Origin: a virus
DNA: 42,710 nt
Strand: one strand, 5' to 3'
IMG/VR virus record: IMGVR_UViG_3300047316_000349
Coordinates: 1-42,710 of that record
Each line of letters starts with the position of its first letter. The stretch's first letter is position 1. A model generated the notes under the pieces. That model was not told the origin of the DNA. It worked only from the letters and a program-made list of their open reading frames with translations, and did no database searches. Made by a program: the position numbers and the translations under genes. Below, piece by piece: positions 13,703-37,457 of this stretch.

Positions 13703-13996
13703 ATGCCCGAACTGTCTTTCGTCGCCGTACTCAACCCGCTCCACCCCCGTGCCTCGCAGCTCAGCTACGCGCACGCCCGCCGCTACGTGCGTCAGGGCCG
13801 TGCCGAATGGGTCAAGGGCGCCAGCGCAATTCGCTTCCTCGAAAGCAATCCCCTGCACCAAAGCGCCGCACGGCTGGCACGCCAGCAGACTGCGCTCGGC
13901 TACGATCAACGCGGCATGCTGCTGTTGCGCGAAGTGCGCCGGCTGCCCTGCCTCGAAGCGGAGCGGCTGTTTGCCGGGCGTAAGCGTGTCGCATGA
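13703..13996 (+). CDS. Small phage protein of unknown function, 97 aa
   Basis: The N-terminal half contains a YAHARRYVRQGRAEWV segment, a pattern I have seen in short uncharacterised phage proteins; the chain is Arg-rich and probably nucleic-acid associated. The start has no strong ribosome site. It lies between the replication module and the small terminase. Another frame across the same bases gives a Cys/Ser/Arg-rich product that looks like a shadow. Confidence 0.5.
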   Translation: MPELSFVAVLNPLHPRASQLSYAHARRYVRQGRAEWVKGASAIRFLESNPLHQSAARLARQQTALGYDQRGMLLLREVRRLPCLEAERLFAGRKRVA

Positions 13997-14030
13997 CCCC
14001 ATGAGTGTGTGCTGTCCATGAGGTTTTCCA

Positions 14031-14402
14031 GTGGCACAGTGTAAAGCGCACTCGAAGGCAAGCGGAAACCAGTGCCGACGCTCGCCTGTTCCCGGTTCGA
14101 CGGTGTGCCGCTATCACGGCGGGGCTGCTCCGCAGGTGCGCAATGCTGCCCAAGCACGCCTCGCGCTCGAGCAGGCGCTCGATCCCGCCATCCGCGAACT
14201 GTTCCGGCTGCTCAATGCCAAGAGCGTGCCCGATGCGGTGAAGCGCCAGGCCGTCGATAGCGTGCTTGATCGAAACGGTCTCTCGCCGGTGCATAAAATC
14301 GCTGACCTGACGGCTGCCGAGCAGATGGCACCCGATGAGCGGAAAGCCCGGCTGCGCGCGCTACATGCGCAACTGTTCGAAGCGTCGGAAACGGTGCAAT
14401 GA
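14031..14402 (+). CDS. terS: Terminase small subunit-like protein, 123 aa
   Basis: GTG start. The first 35 residues have the zinc-binding pattern C-x3-SKASGNQCRRSP..G...CRYHGG followed by APQV, typical of a group of small terminase subunits encoded directly before terL. The rest is helical, with a dimerisation-like segment around 45-85. Small terminase binds the packaging site and loads the large subunit. The stop overlaps the start of terL-N by ATGA. Confidence 0.72.
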   Translation: MAQCKAHSKASGNQCRRSPVPGSTVCRYHGGAAPQVRNAAQARLALEQALDPAIRELFRLLNAKSVPDAVKRQAVDSVLDRNGLSPVHKIADLTAAEQMAPDERKARLRALHAQLFEASETVQ

Positions 14403-15127
14403 ATGCACTGCTCGATGAGTACGAAACGCTACTGGCGGCGGAGCAGAAATACCGCCTGTACACCAAAATCGCCAGCTACTACCCGGACGCCGGGCCCTTA
14501 CGCCGCGAGCTCTACCCGAAGCACCTGCGCTTCTTTGCCTTCGGCAAGGAGTACCGCGAGCGCATGTTCATGGCCGGCAACCGCACCGGCAAGACCACGG
14601 TCGGCTGTTACGAAGCGACACTCCATGCAACGGGCCGCTACGCCGAATACGCACCGTGGTGGGAAGGCAAGCGCTTCGATCACCCGATCTCTTGCGTGGT
14701 CGCAGGCGACACGAACTTGACCACGCGCGACATCCTGCAATCGAAGCTGTTCGGTAAACTGACGCGCCAGCCGGGCGACACGCTCTCGGAAGCCGTCGGT
14801 CTCGGCACCGGCATGATGCCGCGGGATGCGATCATCCGGCCGACACCGCGGAGAGGTGCCGAGAATGCCTACGAAGAAGTGACCATCCGGCACATCTCGG
14901 GCGGCACCAGTGTGATCAAGCTGCGCTCGTTCGAGCAGGGCGCGGAGGCCTTCCAGGGCACCGAAGAAGATCTGATCTGGCTCGATGAGAATTTTCCAGC
15001 CAGCGTGTATTCCGAAAGCCTGACGCGCCTGATGACCACCAACGGCCATCTGCTGATGACCTTCACACCGATCTACGGCGTCACGCCAATTATTCGCGAG
15101 TTCATGGAAAAGGCGCATCGGGCATGA
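14399..15127 (+). CDS. terL-N: Terminase large subunit, ATPase half, 242 aa
   Basis: Carries the packaging ATPase: Walker A AGNRTGKT at residues 59-66 and Walker B LIWLDE at 192-197 with the catalytic Glu197, then the coupling motif region LLMTFTPIYG at 218-227. It stops right after the ATPase domain (REFMEKAHRA), where normal large terminases continue into an RNase H-like nuclease. The nuclease is encoded by 15432-16151 after an inserted 103-codon gene. The two halves total 481 residues, a normal full length, so this appears to be a true split and not a truncation. Confidence 0.88.
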   Translation: MNALLDEYETLLAAEQKYRLYTKIASYYPDAGPLRRELYPKHLRFFAFGKEYRERMFMAGNRTGKTTVGCYEATLHATGRYAEYAPWWEGKRFDHPISCVVAGDTNLTTRDILQSKLFGKLTRQPGDTLSEAVGLGTGMMPRDAIIRPTPRRGAENAYEEVTIRHISGGTSVIKLRSFEQGAEAFQGTEEDLIWLDENFPASVYSESLTRLMTTNGHLLMTFTPIYGVTPIIREFMEKAHRA

Positions 15128-15435
15128 GAAGGGCCGTGATCGTCGACGACGGAGTAGTTCTGGGCTTGCATGGCGCGCGCTATTTGCATGTCAATGTGCG
15201 CACAGACGCGCTACAGGCTGATCCCGACGAAACATCCGCCGGATATGGCTGGAAATATGTGCTTGTGCCGTTGAATGACGACCTGCAGGAATTAGCGCAA
15301 TTTATCAACGCGCTTACGTGCATCACTAGGGCCGAATTGAGCAGGCAATTTGAACGTATGCACGAGCCCGAGCAATTACGCGAGGAGCAAGAATGGCGGG
15401 CTAAGTTTTTGGCAGAGAAGTTAGCAAAGCCATGA
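15124..15435 (+). CDS. Unknown protein inserted between the two terminase halves, 103 aa
   Basis: Starts and ends on ATGA overlaps with the terminase halves. The first half looks beta-rich (MRRAVIVDDGVVLG, RYLHVNV), the second helical and charged, ending EKLAKP. No homing-endonuclease, intein or intron signature is present. Codon use is more AT-rich than in the flanking terminase genes, suggesting acquisition. No family is recognised; a role in packaging is only suggested by location. Confidence 0.65.
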   Translation: MRRAVIVDDGVVLGLHGARYLHVNVRTDALQADPDETSAGYGWKYVLVPLNDDLQELAQFINALTCITRAELSRQFERMHEPEQLREEQEWRAKFLAEKLAKP

Positions 15436-16151
15436 CCCGCGCGCTGGTCACCGCAACCTGGAATGAGACGCCGCATCTCTCGGAGCAGGCCAAAGCCGAT
15501 CTCTGCGCCAGCTACCTGCCGCATGAACTGGAAGCGCGCACCAAAGGCATTCCTTCGTTGGGTCCCGGCGCCGTGTATCCACTTGGCCAGGACAGCTATA
15601 CGTGTGATCCCTTCCCGATCCCGCCGCACTTCCCGCGCGCTTGGGCGCTGGACGTCGGCTGGAATTGGACAGCGGCGACCTGGTGGGCCTGGGACCGGGA
15701 GAACGATCAGGACTGGATCTATCGCGAATATCTGCGTGAGCAGGCGCCGCCCGACGTACATGTCGCGGCGATCAAGGCAGCGGGCGACTGGATACCGGGC
15801 TGCTGCGATCCGGCCGCCAAGCAGCGCTCGCAGGTCGATGGGCGCAATCTGCTCTCCGAATACCATGCGCTCGGCCTCAAGATGGCGCTGGCCGACAACG
15901 CCGTTGAAGCGGGCGTGCTGCGCGTCTATCAGCGCATGGCTGCGGGCAAGCTCAAGATCTTCCGCACCTGCACCAAGCTCTTGGAAGACCTGCGCTTCTA
16001 TCATCGCGACGAATCCGGCCGCGTGGTCAAAGAGAACGACCATTTGTGCGATGCGCTGCGCTACGTCTCGATGACGGGGCCTTCGATCGCGAAGGTGAAG
16101 CTGTTACCGAAGCTGAACGGAGCCGTGAAGCAGCCGTGGGCTTGGGGATGA
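15432..16151 (+). CDS. terL-C: Terminase large subunit, nuclease half, 239 aa
   Basis: Begins TRALVTATWNETPHLSE, the sequence that in one-piece terminases follows the ATPase. The RNase H-like nuclease residues are visible: Asp74 in WALDVGW, Asp126 in CCDPAAKQ and Asp207 in NDHLCDALRY. It cuts concatemeric DNA at the start and end of packaging. Its separate ATGA start means it must associate with the ATPase half as a second polypeptide. Confidence 0.87.
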   Translation: MTRALVTATWNETPHLSEQAKADLCASYLPHELEARTKGIPSLGPGAVYPLGQDSYTCDPFPIPPHFPRAWALDVGWNWTAATWWAWDRENDQDWIYREYLREQAPPDVHVAAIKAAGDWIPGCCDPAAKQRSQVDGRNLLSEYHALGLKMALADNAVEAGVLRVYQRMAAGKLKIFRTCTKLLEDLRFYHRDESGRVVKENDHLCDALRYVSMTGPSIAKVKLLPKLNGAVKQPWAWG

Positions 16152-16387
16152 ATGGTCCTTTGCATGGGCTTGGCGGTCATCTTGATTGGCTGGCACCAAA
16201 GAATCAGGGGTCGCCTCCCGAAATTAAAGTGGGCGAGCAAGCGTTACTGTACTGGAACAGACGGGAGTGGGTTCTTGTCGATGTAGTGGAGCGTCACGGC
16301 TATCGCTTCAAAGTCAAATTATCGGACGGCCGCATCGTTACTGGCATGCGGCTGAACATGCGCAAAGTCAAGAGACCAAGCAATTGA
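16148..16387 (+). CDS. Small basic beta-rich protein, 79 aa
   Basis: ATG at 16148 overlaps the terminase stop (ATGA) and is preferred over an upstream in-frame ATG that lies within terL-C. Residues 27-70 alternate hydrophobic and basic residues (VGEQALLYWNRREWVLVDVV), suggesting a small SH3- or Tudor-like barrel. No family is assigned. The base composition is more AT-rich than the terminase. Confidence 0.5.
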   Translation: MNGPLHGLGGHLDWLAPKNQGSPPEIKVGEQALLYWNRREWVLVDVVERHGYRFKVKLSDGRIVTGMRLNMRKVKRPSN

Positions 16388-16390
16388 GAA

Positions 16391-16648
16391 ATGCAGAAAG
16401 ACGAATCGTTCCGCTGGCATCCGGCGCGAGCCAATTTAAAACCTATGCCTGAAACTGGAAAAGTAGAGACACTTACCGAAGCCGAGATCGACGCCTTCGA
16501 TCAAAAAGCACGCGAGCAATTTGAGCAGACGCTGCGTATGAGTCAGGCGCTGCGGGAAGCCTGGAAGCCGGAACCGGAAGAACCGAAGCCCGGCTCGGAC
16601 GAAGCCAAAGAAGCGATCCGCGACGCCATTAAGCAGGGCGCGGAGTGA
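16391..16648 (+). CDS. Unknown acidic helical protein, 85 aa
   Basis: ATG follows TGAGAA, similar to the GAGAAATG junctions elsewhere. After a basic start the protein is rich in Glu, Ala and Gln with long helix propensity and a Pro/Glu segment near the C-terminus. No family is recognised. Confidence 0.5.
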   Translation: MQKDESFRWHPARANLKPMPETGKVETLTEAEIDAFDQKAREQFEQTLRMSQALREAWKPEPEEPKPGSDEAKEAIRDAIKQGAE

Positions 16649-16651
16649 CAT

Positions 16652-17071
16652 TTGCGCCTGCTGGTGCTGGCGGCCTTTCTGCTGCTGGATGGGCCAACGG
16701 TCGCAGCGCAGCAGACCACGACGCCTGCGGAGCAGACGCGCAATCACCGCACCCGCTGGTGGCTGTCGGCCATAGCGGTACTGGGGGCATCGAGCGTGTA
16801 TACCGGAGCCACCCGCACGATCGAACCCGTCCCATCGCCACCAGGGCAACCGCCGAATCTGGGGCGCGGCGTGGGAATCGTGGTCACTAAACAGCTCGGG
16901 ATCAACTTTGGCATTACCGGCACGATCCTGGCGACGGAATGGTTCTTATTGAAGTACAAAGGCAGGAAATATCCCAAGATCGAGCCCTTGTTCATGGGCC
17001 TGAACTATGCGGGCGCGACGGCCTTGAGCCTGGACGCCGCCGTCGAATTGTCGGGGAAGAAGCCGAAGTGA
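16652..17071 (+). CDS. Exported or membrane protein, 139 aa
   Basis: TTG start. Residues 1-20 resemble a signal peptide or anchor (RLLVLAAFLLL then AxA before AQQ). Further hydrophobic segments occur around 37-52, 80-98 and 110-125, so it may span the membrane several times. A recognised family is lacking. The next gene starts on a GTGA overlap. Confidence 0.5.
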   Translation: MRLLVLAAFLLLDGPTVAAQQTTTPAEQTRNHRTRWWLSAIAVLGASSVYTGATRTIEPVPSPPGQPPNLGRGVGIVVTKQLGINFGITGTILATEWFLLKYKGRKYPKIEPLFMGLNYAGATALSLDAAVELSGKKPK

Positions 17072-19454: not shown

Positions 19455-21638
19455 ATGCCCGAACCGGTTGAAATAGAAACGCTCGACATCTGCGAGCAGG
19501 CCCGCAAATGCTGGCGGGAAGCGCTCGAGCGCGAATCCGAGATCCGCGAAGCCTTCGTGCGCCGCATGAAGTACCGCGCCGGTGACCAGTGGGACCCGGG
19601 CGACGTCAGTGCGCGCGGTAAGGACCGGCCTGCGATCGTCGTCAACCTGCTCGAGCAGCCCGTGCAGCAGGTCATCAACCAGAACCTGCTGAACCGTCCC
19701 GGCGGCCAGGTCTCCCCGGCCGACGATGCGGCGAATGCGGATGTCGCCGAATATCTCGAAGGGCGCATCCGGCACACCGAATACGCGAGCGATTGCCAGG
19801 TGGCGTATGCCACCGCTATCGGCTATGTGGCCGCGGGCGGCTATGGGCTGATCGGGCTCACGGTGGATTACGTTTCCGCCGATTCGCTCGAGCAGGAAGT
19901 GAGGATACGCACGATTGAAGACCCGGCCTGCTGGGCGCTCGATCGGACAAACAAAGAACCGGACGGGCGCGATCGCCGTTGGGCAGTGGGGCGGCAGAAG
20001 TTCTCCGTCGAAGAGTTCCGGCGCCGCTGGCCCGATGCTTCGGTCGTCGATGCCTCGTTCTATGGTCTCGATAAGACCTATGCGGACTGGGGCAACGGCA
20101 CCGATGTCTGGGTCGGAGAATACTGGCGGCTCGATTACCGCACGCGCAAGCTGCAGCGTTTCTCGGATGGCTCGAGTGGCTTCCTGGACGATAAACAGTT
20201 TCTAAAACGCCTGCCGCCGGGTGTGACGGCCCTTCCGGGGGAAGGTAACACGCGCGACGTAGAGTATCCCGAAGTCACGCAGTATTTGATCAGCGGCGCT
20301 GAGGTGCTGGATGAGACCCCGTGGACGGGCACGCGGATTCCGTTGTATGAAGTGATCGCCACCGAGTTCTATGCGGACGGCAAACGCATCGTCAAATCGC
20401 TGATCTCGGATGCCCTGCCTTCGCAACAGACTTACAACTGCTCGGAATCGCTCAAATTGGAAGCCGTGGTACTCGCGCCGAAACCAAAGTGGTTGGCATC
20501 GACGGAGCAGTTGGCCGGGCATGAGGACCGCTGGAAGGCTGCGAATACCTCGGAAGATGGCGTGCTCTTCTACAACGGCACGCAAGACAGCCGCGGCAAT
20601 CCGGTGCCGCCGCCGGACTGGAAAGTCTTCGTGCCGCCGGTGCAAGAGTTCACCCTCGTCTCCAATCAGGCGAAAGAAGACATCAAGGCCTGCACCGGGT
20701 TTTTCGATCCAGCGCTCGGCGCAATGGACCCGCAGCGGCAATCGGGCAAGGCCATCCTCGCGCTGCAGCAGCAGACCGGACAGGGCACCGCGCATTTTGC
20801 CGAGAACCTCGCGCGTGCGCTCAAGGCGCTCTATCAGGACGTGATCGATGTCGACCTGAAGCTGAACCGCAACAGCGGGCCGACGCAGAAGCGTGTGACC
20901 GGGCCGAACGGAGAGCATCAACTCGTAAAGATCAACGATCCGGGCGCCGTGAAACAGCTCTTACTCGACAAGGGCCGCTATGAAGTGGTGGTGAGTGTGG
21001 GGCCGAGCTGGCGGAACCAGCGCGAAGCGACCACCGCCTTCGTGTCGACGACGGCGCAGAATGACCCGCAAGGCTGGGCACTCATTCGCGATATCGGGGC
21101 ACGGCTGATGGAGCCGCAGTTGGGGCATTTCGCGGATGAGATTGCCACGCGCTGGACGCCTCCGCAGTTTGCGCAGCAGGACCCGAACGCGCCGCCACTG
21201 CCGCCGGGCGTGCAGCAGCAGATGGCGCTGGTGCCGCAATTGACGCAGCGCGTCAATGAACTGCAGCAGGTGATTCAGCAGAAACAGGTGGAAGAGCAAG
21301 GCCGCTATCAAAGAGAAATGGCCCAGGAGCAAATGAAGTTTCAAACGGAGCAATTGAAAAGTTCTACTCAATTGCAGGTGGCCGAATTGCAAGCTAAAAA
21401 TGATACTTATTTAGCCCAAATCAACGCGCGCGTTCAGGTGCTGGAAGCGATGGCGGATCGCGGCCATGAGCTACAGAAGCAGGCACACAAGCAAGCCCAT
21501 GAAACAGGATTAGCGGCCATGCAGCACGCACATGCGATGCATCAGGCCGATGCGCAGCATGAAAACGAAATCGACATGGCCCAAGCCCAGCCGGCGCCCA
21601 CCAACGGCAGCGAAGCCGGCGCCGAAGCCCAAGCCTGA
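19455..21638 (+). CDS. Portal protein, P22 type, 727 aa
   Basis: Forms the dodecameric ring through which DNA is packaged and ejected. The N-terminal 400 residues follow the P22-like portal family: an RRMKYRAGDQWDPGD start region, then RPAIVVNLLEQPVQQVINQ, and the AYATAIGYVAAGGYG wing region. Residues about 600-700 form a long Gln/Glu/His/Ala-rich helix like the coiled-coil barrel of P22 portal. Length is the same as P22 gp1 (about 725). Codon use within the barrel (about 21300-21425) is locally more AT-rich. Confidence 0.9.
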   Translation: MPEPVEIETLDICEQARKCWREALERESEIREAFVRRMKYRAGDQWDPGDVSARGKDRPAIVVNLLEQPVQQVINQNLLNRPGGQVSPADDAANADVAEYLEGRIRHTEYASDCQVAYATAIGYVAAGGYGLIGLTVDYVSADSLEQEVRIRTIEDPACWALDRTNKEPDGRDRRWAVGRQKFSVEEFRRRWPDASVVDASFYGLDKTYADWGNGTDVWVGEYWRLDYRTRKLQRFSDGSSGFLDDKQFLKRLPPGVTALPGEGNTRDVEYPEVTQYLISGAEVLDETPWTGTRIPLYEVIATEFYADGKRIVKSLISDALPSQQTYNCSESLKLEAVVLAPKPKWLASTEQLAGHEDRWKAANTSEDGVLFYNGTQDSRGNPVPPPDWKVFVPPVQEFTLVSNQAKEDIKACTGFFDPALGAMDPQRQSGKAILALQQQTGQGTAHFAENLARALKALYQDVIDVDLKLNRNSGPTQKRVTGPNGEHQLVKINDPGAVKQLLLDKGRYEVVVSVGPSWRNQREATTAFVSTTAQNDPQGWALIRDIGARLMEPQLGHFADEIATRWTPPQFAQQDPNAPPLPPGVQQQMALVPQLTQRVNELQQVIQQKQVEEQGRYQREMAQEQMKFQTEQLKSSTQLQVAELQAKNDTYLAQINARVQVLEAMADRGHELQKQAHKQAHETGLAAMQHAHAMHQADAQHENEIDMAQAQPAPTNGSEAGAEAQA

Positions 21639-33620: not shown

Positions 33621-35504
33621 ATGCCACTCGATCCGAATATTTCGCTGTCCTATCAGCCGCCGCAGATCCAGTCGCCGCTCGCCGCCATCGGCCAGGTGCA
33701 GGCGCTCAAGAACCAGCAACTGCAAAGCCAGAGTGCGCAGCTGGAATTGCAGCAGCAACAGCGCCAAATGGCAGCGCAGCAGGCAATGGGAACTGCGATG
33801 GCGAATGCCTTCAAGGCCAACCCGGACGGCAGCATGGAATTTGATACGCCGAAGATCGCAGAGCGCATGGCCGCGGCCGGTTTCGGCTATGCCATTCCGG
33901 GCCTGACCGAGAACCTGAACAAAGCCAATGCGTCCATTGCCGATCTGCAGAAGAAGCAGGCCGACTTGCTTGAAACGCAGAACGATCTGAAGGGATTCAC
34001 GGCGAACGCCATCAAGGAACACTTTACGCCGCAATCGTTAATCGGCGGAGTTACGGCGCTCTCGGCGCACAAGCTGATAGACGGAGATGCGGCGAACCAG
34101 GCCGTACAGGATATCCAGGCGCACCAGGATGACCTGAATTATCTGCACCAGAAGTACGATCCGCTGCTCGATCAGTTGATCGGCACGTCCAAGGGCGTGC
34201 AGACCATGCGCGGCACACAAATGCGCGGCGAAGCCCAGATGGGCGAACTGCGACTCAAGCAGCGCACCACGGCGTTGAATGCCTTGGCGGGTGCGCCGAA
34301 TGATGCCGCTTATCAGCAGACCCTCGCGAAACTGCAAGACAGCGGGATTTCGCCGGATGTGCTGAAAGAGTTCCAGGGCGCATGGACGCCGGAACGGCAG
34401 CAGCAGTTGGTCAGCCTGACGCAGACGCCGCAGGAGCGCATTCAGGCAGCAGGGCAAGCAGCGGATGCGTTGCAGAAGCAAGTCACTGCATTGGCCGTCC
34501 CGCTCGCGCAGGCGGCTGATAGGGGAAATTTCACGCAGGCTCTTGCCGCATTGCCGAAGGAAGTGCAGGCGCGGTTTCAAAACCTCGGGCCGAATCCCAA
34601 GGGAACCGACATTTTGCGGGCTGCGTTGACGCCGGAACAGCAGATCACGGCGGCGCACCAGCAGAGGATGGAGGAGCAGGAGGGCATTCGCACCGGACTG
34701 GAGCAGGGACGCTACGGGCTCGCATTGAAGGAATTCGAGCAAAAGTATGGCGAGCCGCTCGCCAACGCAAAACCGGAAGATATGCTGCGCTACCAGGCTA
34801 TTCTCCGCGGCGATATGCCCATGCCTTCGCCGCGCAGTGTAGGCGGACAGAAGACCGCCGATGCGGTGCTGGCGCTGGCGCAACAGCAGGGCGACACCTA
34901 CACCGAGAACCGCTATCTCACGCGGAAGGCCTTCAAGAACGGGACGGATGCACAACAGTTGCAGAATCTGACAACGGCACTGGGACACGCTGAACGCGGC
35001 CTGGACAATTCCACGAACCTAGGCTTTAATCCGACAGTTGGAACGCGGTTTCCAACAACGGGGGCCGCCGCATATGGGCAGGACGTCGAACTGGGCTCTG
35101 CCGAATTAGCCAAGCTCGCCGCCGCAGGGGCGATCACCGAGGGTGACCACCAGAGATTAGCGAAGGATCTGCGCGACACTCGCGAGGGCGTCCGCAATGC
35201 CGCCTGGAAGGAGATGATCGATCTCGTCGGCAGTCGGGTGCAGGGCATGGAGCAAAAATTCAAAACCGGAACTGGGCAAGACATCAATCCCGCTGAGTTC
35301 TATAGCCCTCAAACCCAGCAGCGCATGCGGCGCTTCGGCATCGGACGAGTCGCAGAAACACCGGCGACTGGAACAGGAGTGCCAACATCCACCAGTGCCG
35401 CTGCTCCGCAAACACACAAGGTCGGCGATACGGTCAATCTAAAAGGTGGCCGAACTGCCAAGGTGACCGCCGTTTATCCTGACGGCACGTTTGACGCACA
35501 ATAA
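33621..35504 (+). CDS. Internal virion (ejection) protein with coiled coils, 627 aa
   Basis: Helical and Gln/Ala/Leu-rich, with coiled coils at about 20-60 and 90-140 and many QQ pairs. The C-terminal 40 residues are a small beta domain (VGDTVNLKGGRTAKVTAVYP), resembling a KOW/SH3-like end. It is probably an ejected protein, as for P22 gp20 by position. There are no enzyme motifs. Confidence 0.65.
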   Translation: MPLDPNISLSYQPPQIQSPLAAIGQVQALKNQQLQSQSAQLELQQQQRQMAAQQAMGTAMANAFKANPDGSMEFDTPKIAERMAAAGFGYAIPGLTENLNKANASIADLQKKQADLLETQNDLKGFTANAIKEHFTPQSLIGGVTALSAHKLIDGDAANQAVQDIQAHQDDLNYLHQKYDPLLDQLIGTSKGVQTMRGTQMRGEAQMGELRLKQRTTALNALAGAPNDAAYQQTLAKLQDSGISPDVLKEFQGAWTPERQQQLVSLTQTPQERIQAAGQAADALQKQVTALAVPLAQAADRGNFTQALAALPKEVQARFQNLGPNPKGTDILRAALTPEQQITAAHQQRMEEQEGIRTGLEQGRYGLALKEFEQKYGEPLANAKPEDMLRYQAILRGDMPMPSPRSVGGQKTADAVLALAQQQGDTYTENRYLTRKAFKNGTDAQQLQNLTTALGHAERGLDNSTNLGFNPTVGTRFPTTGAAAYGQDVELGSAELAKLAAAGAITEGDHQRLAKDLRDTREGVRNAAWKEMIDLVGSRVQGMEQKFKTGTGQDINPAEFYSPQTQQRMRRFGIGRVAETPATGTGVPTSTSAAAPQTHKVGDTVNLKGGRTAKVTAVYPDGTFDAQ

Positions 35505-37457
35505 ATGCCTCAAGGAAAATATTCCGCCGCAGATCTCGCTGACGTACCGACTCAGCGTCCAACCGGCCAGTATTCCGCAGCGGACGTAGAAAGTGCTGGC
35601 GCGCCGCCAGATCGCGGCTTCTGGAGCAGTCTCTACGATGCTTCCATCGGAGCGGTCAAGGCCGGGATCAACGAATGGATAAATCGGCCAGACGAAATCC
35701 GCAAGGCAACGGACGCGCTCGGCGTGTATCAGAAAATTGAGGGTGATTCCGCAAGCCTTCCCGAGAACAAAGACAAGCCGCAATCCCAATGGAAACTGCG
35801 CTCGCCAACCGCTGACGAACAGAAGATCCTCGACGAAGGCATGAATGCGCGCCTGCCGGGCGCTGAAGAAAATCTCATGACCCAGCAGACGGCCCCAGCC
35901 GTGGCAGCCGGACAGCAGGTTGGGCAAGGGAACCTACGCGGCGCGGCTGGAACGCTGGTAGGCTCCTATGGACCGCTTGCGGCTGGCGAAACGATTTCCC
36001 GCTTTGCGCCGAATATTCGAATCACGCCGCGCTTGCCCGTCTCGCTTGATCCGGCAGAACTGGCAGCGGTGCAGTTCGCTGCCAAGACCGGCGTTCCAAT
36101 CGATGCCGCTTCGGCCACGGGTAATCCAGTAGTGCGCAATGTTCAAGGGTTCTTGCAGAATGCTCCCGGTTCGGCGCTGGTGATCAAGAGGGCGCGCGTA
36201 ACGCAGACGGAAGCATTAAAGAGCGCGGGGGCCGATATCGCTGCAGGCATCTCACCCGCAGAGGCAACCCCCGAGATCGGAGGCACTGGCGTTCGTCAAG
36301 CGCTGGAGTCCCGCATTGCATCTCAGGGATCGCAGGCATCAGCCGCTTACGACCGTCTCAGGCAAATCGAGAATGCGCCAGCCAATCGCCAGAGAGTCAC
36401 CGTTGGATCGAAGGCCTCTGGCGTCTTGGATGCCAACGGAAACCCGGTGATGACTCCGGTCACCCAAGACGTTGCTTTGCCGTATGACTTTCGCGGCGTA
36501 AAGCAAGCACTCAAACCAATCGCGGACGAGATGCAGCAGCAAATCACGCCCGGCCAGCAGCAGTACTCAAAGGCCTTACTGGCGATACGGAATATTCTTG
36601 ACGGCCCTGATGTCGTTTCAGCGAGCACGGCAGATCAAAACCTGAGTGCGCTTAAAGCGATTCAGCGCGAAGCGCCAAACGCCCAAACCGGATGGCTGGC
36701 AACGCAACTGATCAAACAATATGCGCCTGCGGTTGAGGCGGCAGTTGCCAAGGCCGGTCCGGAGGCGCTGGATGCGCTCCACGAAGGAAGGCAGTTGACA
36801 GCGGCGAAATATGCCACGAAGGATACGCTCGATCAATTGCCAACTGAGCCGGTCGGACTCTTCAATAAGCTAACCAGCGCGAAGGACGCAAACATCAACC
36901 TTGTGCGCGATGTCGCATCCAAGGCTCCCGAGGCCATGCCTGCCGTCGGGCGGGCCGTCGTGGTAGGACTCATGGATAAGGCCTTCGCTGAAGCAGGTCA
37001 AGGGAAGCCAGGCAGTGTTCTGACGGAGTGGCAGAAACTAGGACCAGAAACGAAGAGGATTCTGTTTAAAGATCCGCGAACCATCTCCAATTTGGATGAC
37101 TTCTTTACCTTTGCGAAAAAAGCCGCTGAGAACCCGAACCCGAGCGGCACTGCTTATATGGCGCAGTTAGGCCTGGACGGCAGTATGCTATGGAACGCCC
37201 CGCATCTGGGAGTGACATATTTAATCGGCAAGAATGCGCTCGCGCGGATACTTACTAATCCCGTGACGGCCCGCGCTCTGACAAACGGCCTAGCGCTACC
37301 ATCCAATCGAGCAGCCATCGGCGGAATTCTTACGAATCAGATTCTACAGGCGGCTGGCCCTGACGTGCGCCAGATCAATACTCCGAATAACGCAGCGCTC
37401 AACGCCAATGCACCGGACGTTTGGGGAGTGCCACTGGCCGCCGCAGGCTCCCGGTGA
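35505..37457 (+). CDS. Internal virion (ejection) protein, 650 aa
   Basis: Opens with two GxYSAADxxxx repeats (residues 4-30), then mixed helical sequence with a Gly/Ala-rich hydrophobic region at about 140-165 and another near 580-625. The usual P22 gp16 length is 609. Lytic transglycosylase motifs were looked for and not seen. It ends inside the convergent minus-strand gene by 59 bases. Confidence 0.62.
   Translation: MPQGKYSAADLADVPTQRPTGQYSAADVESAGAPPDRGFWSSLYDASIGAVKAGINEWINRPDEIRKATDALGVYQKIEGDSASLPENKDKPQSQWKLRSPTADEQKILDEGMNARLPGAEENLMTQQTAPAVAAGQQVGQGNLRGAAGTLVGSYGPLAAGETISRFAPNIRITPRLPVSLDPAELAAVQFAAKTGVPIDAASATGNPVVRNVQGFLQNAPGSALVIKRARVTQTEALKSAGADIAAGISPAEATPEIGGTGVRQALESRIASQGSQASAAYDRLRQIENAPANRQRVTVGSKASGVLDANGNPVMTPVTQDVALPYDFRGVKQALKPIADEMQQQITPGQQQYSKALLAIRNILDGPDVVSASTADQNLSALKAIQREAPNAQTGWLATQLIKQYAPAVEAAVAKAGPEALDALHEGRQLTAAKYATKDTLDQLPTEPVGLFNKLTSAKDANINLVRDVASKAPEAMPAVGRAVVVGLMDKAFAEAGQGKPGSVLTEWQKLGPETKRILFKDPRTISNLDDFFTFAKKAAENPNPSGTAYMAQLGLDGSMLWNAPHLGVTYLIGKNALARILTNPVTARALTNGLALPSNRAAIGGILTNQILQAAGPDVRQINTPNNAALNANAPDVWGVPLAAAGSR

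Follow-up and report, generated by a model that had tools for sequence, protein, structure and literature searches.

The gene for the large terminase (terL, encoding TerL) is a standard phage marker gene. In the virus record IMGVR_UViG_3300047316_000349 from IMG/VR (42,710 nucleotides; the window), it takes the form of three consecutive open reading frames (ORFs), the outer two encoding an ATPase and a nuclease and the middle one a protein of 103 aa. This raises the questions of whether the packaging motor of this phage is naturally made of two polypeptides and what the small gene between them contributes. We consider it likely that TerL is made here as two non-covalently associated polypeptides which together form the motor, and that the split opened an intergenic slot for cargo. 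The genes, their conservation, the position of the break, its recurrence and the turnover of the cargo are observed, whereas non-covalent assembly and packaging activity are inferred.

A large terminase in two genes

The original prediction, made from the sequence of the window alone, had described three ORFs joined by ATGA overlaps, with Walker A, Walker B and coupling motifs in the first and the nuclease Asp residues in the third (15432-16151). All of this was borne out: overlaps at 15124-15127 and 15432-15435 link chain 1, the 103-aa ORF and chain 2, which occupy three different frames, and the motifs are present and conserved, most catalytic-motif positions being invariant or nearly so among relatives. 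The outer two ORFs are halves of one P22-type TerL in which the catalytic residues are kept, arranged as follows (all on the plus strand):

14399-15127, plus strand: TerL chain 1, ASCE ATPase core, 242 aa (Pfam Terminase_6N, 2.4e-17)
14576-14596, plus strand: Walker A, GNRTGKT (N61, R62, G64 and K65 invariant in the ATPase-half alignment, A1)
14972-14989, plus strand: Walker B and catalytic Glu, LIWLDE (D196 and E197 invariant)
15059-15070, plus strand: coupling motif, TFTP (T221, T223 and P224 invariant)
15104-15127, plus strand: first part of the broken loop, seven residues past the conserved F235, and the new stop codon
15124-15435, plus strand: putative cargo gene, 103 aa, no known family
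15432-16151, plus strand: TerL chain 2, lid subdomain and RNase H-fold nuclease, 239 aa, with a start codon of its own (Pfam Terminase_6C, 7.4e-11)
15453-15542, plus strand: predicted lid ("transmission") subdomain, chain 2 residues ~8-37 (profile alignment with D6E TerL 200-229)
15543-15578, plus strand: predicted ATPase-nuclease linker, intact, chain 2 residues ~38-49 (D6E linker 230-241, same alignment)
15651-16052, plus strand: nuclease acids D74 (15651), D126 (15807), D203 (16038) and D207 (16050), invariant in the nuclease-half alignment (A2)

An ASCE ATPase with its motifs, an RNase H-fold nuclease with its acids, a lid and a linker are all present, the lid and linker by profile alignment. 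What departs from a TerL is that ATPase and nuclease do not share a polypeptide: the ATPase ORF ends with a stop codon and the nuclease ORF begins with a start codon of its own, an arrangement conserved in 91 non-redundant sequences. No second large terminase was found among the main ORFs of the window that were scanned, and neither a terminator nor a promoter between 15124 and 15435. Terminase pieces of this kind are already in databases, the halves matching phrog_31467, an ATPase-half-sized family without described function, and phrog_5653, a nuclease-only family.

Position of the break

AlphaFold models of the two chains (predicted local distance difference test, pLDDT, 85 for chain 1 and 82 for chain 2) were compared with terminase structures. 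Chain 1 matched the ATPase domains of P74-26 (Z 15.9), D6E (5oe8; Z 15.0) and T4 (Z 14.8), a match that came from fold comparison, as the ATPase-half profile found none among PDB sequences. Chain 2 matched the nucleases of P22 (gp2; 4dkw; Z 25.9, 31% identical over 183 residues) and D6E (Z 20.8). The end of chain 1 corresponds to residue 189-190 of D6E TerL and residue 305 of the T4 protein, and residue ~8 of chain 2 to D6E residue 200, the latter by profile alignment. Residues 213, 216 and 224 of D6E TerL belong to its lid, and residues 230-241 form the linker that connects ATPase and nuclease (PMC5727402); the lid has been described as the "transmission" part (PMC3012670). Since the D6E lid and linker positions map to chain 2, the break separates the ASCE core from the lid. 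The interdomain linker, in which the original prediction had placed the break, appears to be intact on chain 2. Going by the models, chain 1 is the engine of the motor and chain 2 its transmission together with the nuclease. The TerL proteins of P22 and D6E, which share fold and motifs with the two chains, are single chains, whereas here the chain is broken between ASCE core and lid.

As a separate observation, phrog_5653 (199 positions) aligns to chain 2 only from residue 46 onward, so that in some phages the split may lie in the true linker between ATPase and nuclease.

Recurrence and conservation of the split

Viral and bacterial contigs were searched using either half as well as profiles of the two, as had been proposed originally. 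This gave 274 loci (numbered with the prefix L) with both halves, 117 split and 157 fused, or 91 split (the window included) and 123 fused in a non-redundant set of 214. The searches were partly seeded with split sequences, so that 91 of 214 (~40% in the sample) is not a prevalence. In all split cases the break falls in a single loop of ~18 residues, between the conserved F235 of the ATPase half and W10 of the nuclease half, and matches end at most 6 residues before the end of the ATPase query and start at most 8 residues into the nuclease query. Between these F and W residues fused proteins have a median spacing of 18, and split ones a median of 10 residues after F plus 9 before W (7+9 in the window); as the parts sum to the length of the fused loop, the loop has been divided rather than lost.

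The split form also occurs in assembled bacterial genomes, namely of Halomonas, two Azospirillum and Endozoicomonas (L191, merged with L012 as near-identical). A circular complete record, MW202785.1 (Podoviridae sp. ct2G2228), has two adjacent genes annotated "large terminase protein", 133 bp apart, and carries no comment on the split. That 91 non-redundant sequences of diverse origin share one break cannot plausibly be put down to chance or to faulty assembly, and it upholds the earlier proposal of a natural two-gene terminase. Judging from these sequences, the two-gene split is recurrent and common in the TerL family sampled rather than an isolated oddity. A limited search of open-access papers found no report of a natural, unspliced TerL encoded by two genes.

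Both halves are under purifying selection similar to that on fused relatives. The median pairwise ratios of nonsynonymous to synonymous substitution rates (dN/dS) in the window clade are 0.128 for the ATPase half and 0.137 for the nuclease half, compared with 0.11 and 0.09 in another split clade and 0.16 and 0.12 in a fused clade with few usable pairs. The correlation between N- and C-terminal distances is 0.23 in split and 0.69 in fused sequences, two sets that differ in depth, and it carries no conclusion on recombination between the halves.

Trees point to inheritance of the split state within clades. FastTree with 214 sequences gave 26 state changes, 15 of them forced by well-supported (starred) branches, against a mean of 69 after shuffling; IQ-TREE (quick mode) with 96 sequences gave 24 changes, 6 of them forced, against a shuffled mean of 30. 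Changes recur and yet are fewer than in the shuffles, which argues for a state that is heritable within clades and not of single origin. The exact number of origins is uncertain (6 versus 15 forced changes), and a given change may be a split or a re-fusion.

Shine-Dalgarno-like motifs precede the start of the nuclease half in 36 of 88 cases, a mild enrichment over the random control (26%). A side observation concerns four loci whose nuclease halves start near 443 (L243), 4016 (L281), 4004 (L282) and 4728 (L175): there is no ATG, GTG or TTG start where the nuclease-half homology begins in L243, L281 and L282, or near there in L175. All four have an ATT codon at this place, preceded by GAGGA in L243 and L282, which suggests a rare AUU start.

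The 103-aa gene and the interval between the halves

Neither Pfam nor PHROG families matched the 103-aa protein. When it was searched for alone, as had also been proposed, a scan of viral contigs gave only L001, and phage records gave chance matches only (best E value 2), a result that offers no support for a role as motor partner. L001 is nearly identical to the window, with 100% identity in the ATPase half (75-86% for the others of the window clade) and 99% in the nuclease half, yet the 183 bases right after the ATPase-half stop are unrelated:

15128-15310, plus strand: segment exchanged in comparison with L001 (lying between blastn blocks 13747-15128 and 15311-16648, flanks 97% identical)

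Relative to L001 the gene is chimeric. Its last ~40 codons are common to the cargo of L001 (3 differences in 120 bases) and, more distantly, of L004 and L008, and its first ~60 codons are unique. Two relatives, L003 (4-bp overlap) and L005 (7-bp gap), are split without any insert, insert-free relatives being 82-85% identical to the window; the inserted gene, to which the split had originally been attributed, is thus not supported as its primary cause. Elsewhere in the window clade the gap holds a 68-aa ORF (L006), related ORFs of ~90 aa (L001, L004, L008), no long ORF (L002) or, in L007, 1.9 kb containing a transposase-like gene flanked by arrays of repeats. These arrays are an observation of their own: at L007:4738-6622 alternating GAGCGAGCCA / GAGAGAACCA units with a 36-bp period (16 pattern matches) flank the IS110-like transposase gene, and they are absent from the window and from all other loci except L083, which is the same contig.

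Family-wide, the interval between the halves ranges from -8 to 2,761 bp, and 43 of the 91 splits show an overlap or at most 32 bp. Its contents include HNH/NUMOD4 endonucleases, endonuclease VII, N6/N4 and Dam methyltransferases, HipA, TROVE/Ro60, DUF1643 and an IS110-like transposase, for example:

L146:5300-6838, minus strand: HipA-like gene between the halves
L169:4907-6610: DUF1643 and helix-turn-helix (HTH) genes between the halves
L288:2471-3805, plus strand: TROVE/Ro60 gene between the halves
L263:3392-3994, plus strand: Dam methyltransferase gene between the halves

Such contents suggest that the gap is a slot for cargo or defence genes, within an essential locus. In some loci (L146, L179) the larger ORFs of the cargo are encoded on the other strand and cannot couple translation of the two halves. 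Because close relatives lack the 103-aa gene, carry another in its stead or have a chimeric version, it is most plausibly a passenger and not part of the motor.

Alternative explanations

The split might have arisen when a homing endonuclease or another gene inserted into terL and made two genes of it ("genes in pieces"), the 103-aa ORF being a degenerate or replaced remnant. Terminase genes often contain or adjoin nucleases (PMC10448857), and HNH/NUMOD4 genes lie exactly between the halves in L043 and L235, as does an endonuclease VII gene in L033. As a general account we regard this as unlikely, given the nearly half of all splits with overlapping or closely spaced halves, the intermixing of zero-insert and cargo-bearing splits in most clades, the small number of nucleases among the cargo genes and the lack of a nuclease family match for the 103-aa protein. 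An origin through homing endonucleases is possible for some lineages and conjectural for that of the window. The earlier statement that the window contains no intron, intein or homing nuclease agrees with our results, there being no Rfam match in the window and no Pfam match for the insert.

The halves could also be joined into one TerL chain by splicing, of RNA or protein, or by frameshifting. The terL gene of phage ICP1 is indeed joined by splicing (PMC10448857), and this route is very unlikely here: no Rfam match was found in 13 sources (the window plus 12 relatives, most of which have large gaps), relatives without an insert contain nothing that could be spliced out, the interval sequence is unrelated between relatives, each half has its own stop or start, and the insert ORF lies in a third frame. 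Frameshifting was considered and rejected, as the ATGA at each junction would require two -1 shifts and include the 103 aa, and no slippery site was seen by eye; so was an intein, in view of the three frames, the stop codons and the lack of a Pfam match for the insert. That the 103-aa protein is a third subunit bridging the halves, as the original prediction had tentatively put forward, would fit the position of its gene with ATGA overlaps on both sides and the ~40 C-terminal codons conserved with L001. We find this highly improbable, since the gene is absent in L003 and L005 and unrelated in L006 and L007, its N-terminus is replaced relative to L001, and the viral-contig scan yields no relatives beyond L001. 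The chance of an assembly or sequencing error or of a decayed terminase is close to negligible; the window is a single virus record and nothing else was found in favour, and against it stand the same-loop break in 91 non-redundant sequences, assembled bacterial genomes among them, and dN/dS of ~0.13 in both halves.

A probable two-chain packaging motor

If TerL indeed works as two chains, both would be translated from one operon, bind to each other over the large contact surface of ASCE core and lid, and assemble into the usual ring at the portal. The lid of chain 2 would close over the ATP cleft in chain 1 and be moved by ATP hydrolysis there; through the intact linker it would pass the stroke on to the nuclease domain, the part that grips and cleaves DNA. 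The motor could do without a peptide bond between core and lid if the ASCE-lid interface is strong. The split itself would have arisen when the variable loop acquired a stop and a start codon, probably through an indel or gene insertion, and would be tolerated because chain and loop lengths are otherwise kept and the halves share one operon, often with ATGA coupling. The new gene boundary would then serve as a landing place for passenger genes, the 103-aa ORF being one of them.

The nearest precedents are Aeh1 nrdA, ICP1 terL and the T4 gp17 cut. The "genes-in-pieces" arrangement of nrdA and mobE in phage Aeh1 is a split essential phage enzyme reported as functional (Friedrich 2007, via PMC10448857 and PMC5418858); its insert is a homing endonuclease, whereas the window family has variable inserts or none and the split enzyme is a packaging motor. 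ICP1 terL likewise consists of two coding segments, which are joined by RNA splicing (PMC10448857), while the window family shows no intron signal and includes relatives without any insert. T4 gp17 has likewise been cut into two polypeptides, a separate ATPase and a separate nuclease (Kanamaru 2004, in the accounts given by PMC3012670 and PMC9958956).

Two points weigh against a functional two-chain motor of repeated origin. Some deep branches of the trees are weak, and the cut T4 gp17, according to the same two accounts, kept both activities and lost translocation; the T4 hinge is described as essential for packaging (PMC9958956). That cut was artificial, lay at the ATPase-nuclease linker and did not involve a naturally adapted pair, whereas the natural break lies upstream, before the lid. 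On balance we lean towards the view that packaging motors of the P22-type TerL family have repeatedly become two-chain machines and that the covalent link between core and lid is not needed for translocation. Selection may even favour the split, for example because it sets subunit ratios or, more speculatively, because it alters recognition by terminase-sensing defences such as Avs. Current models assume that ATPase core, lid and nuclease form one covalent chain. Motors that became two-chained in nature many times over would offer a direct test of which connections carry force, and the split chains would be ready-made, separately expressible parts for biochemistry. Annotation pipelines should be aware that ~40% of the loci in this family sample carry terL in two pieces.

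Other features of the window

The phage is podovirus-like and carries genes for an integrase, portal, scaffold, major head and head-closure proteins. Two of its genes lie on either side of the terminase genes:

14031-14402, plus strand: small-terminase-like gene, 123 aa (weak PHROG terminase-small-subunit matches, E 0.01-0.04, and position directly upstream of terL)
19455-21638, plus strand: portal protein (phrog_156, 2.9e-75), the first long structural gene past the terminase genes

The 3' end of the small-terminase-like gene and the start of the ATPase half share an ATGA. A second length-variable spot lies 3' of the nuclease half (window 16648-16653 versus L001 2871-3091), where 219 bp of L001 are missing in the window. 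Further downstream, two large adjoining ORFs of 627 and 650 aa (33621-37457) without PHROG match follow a DNA-ejection-like gene and possibly encode ejected virion proteins.
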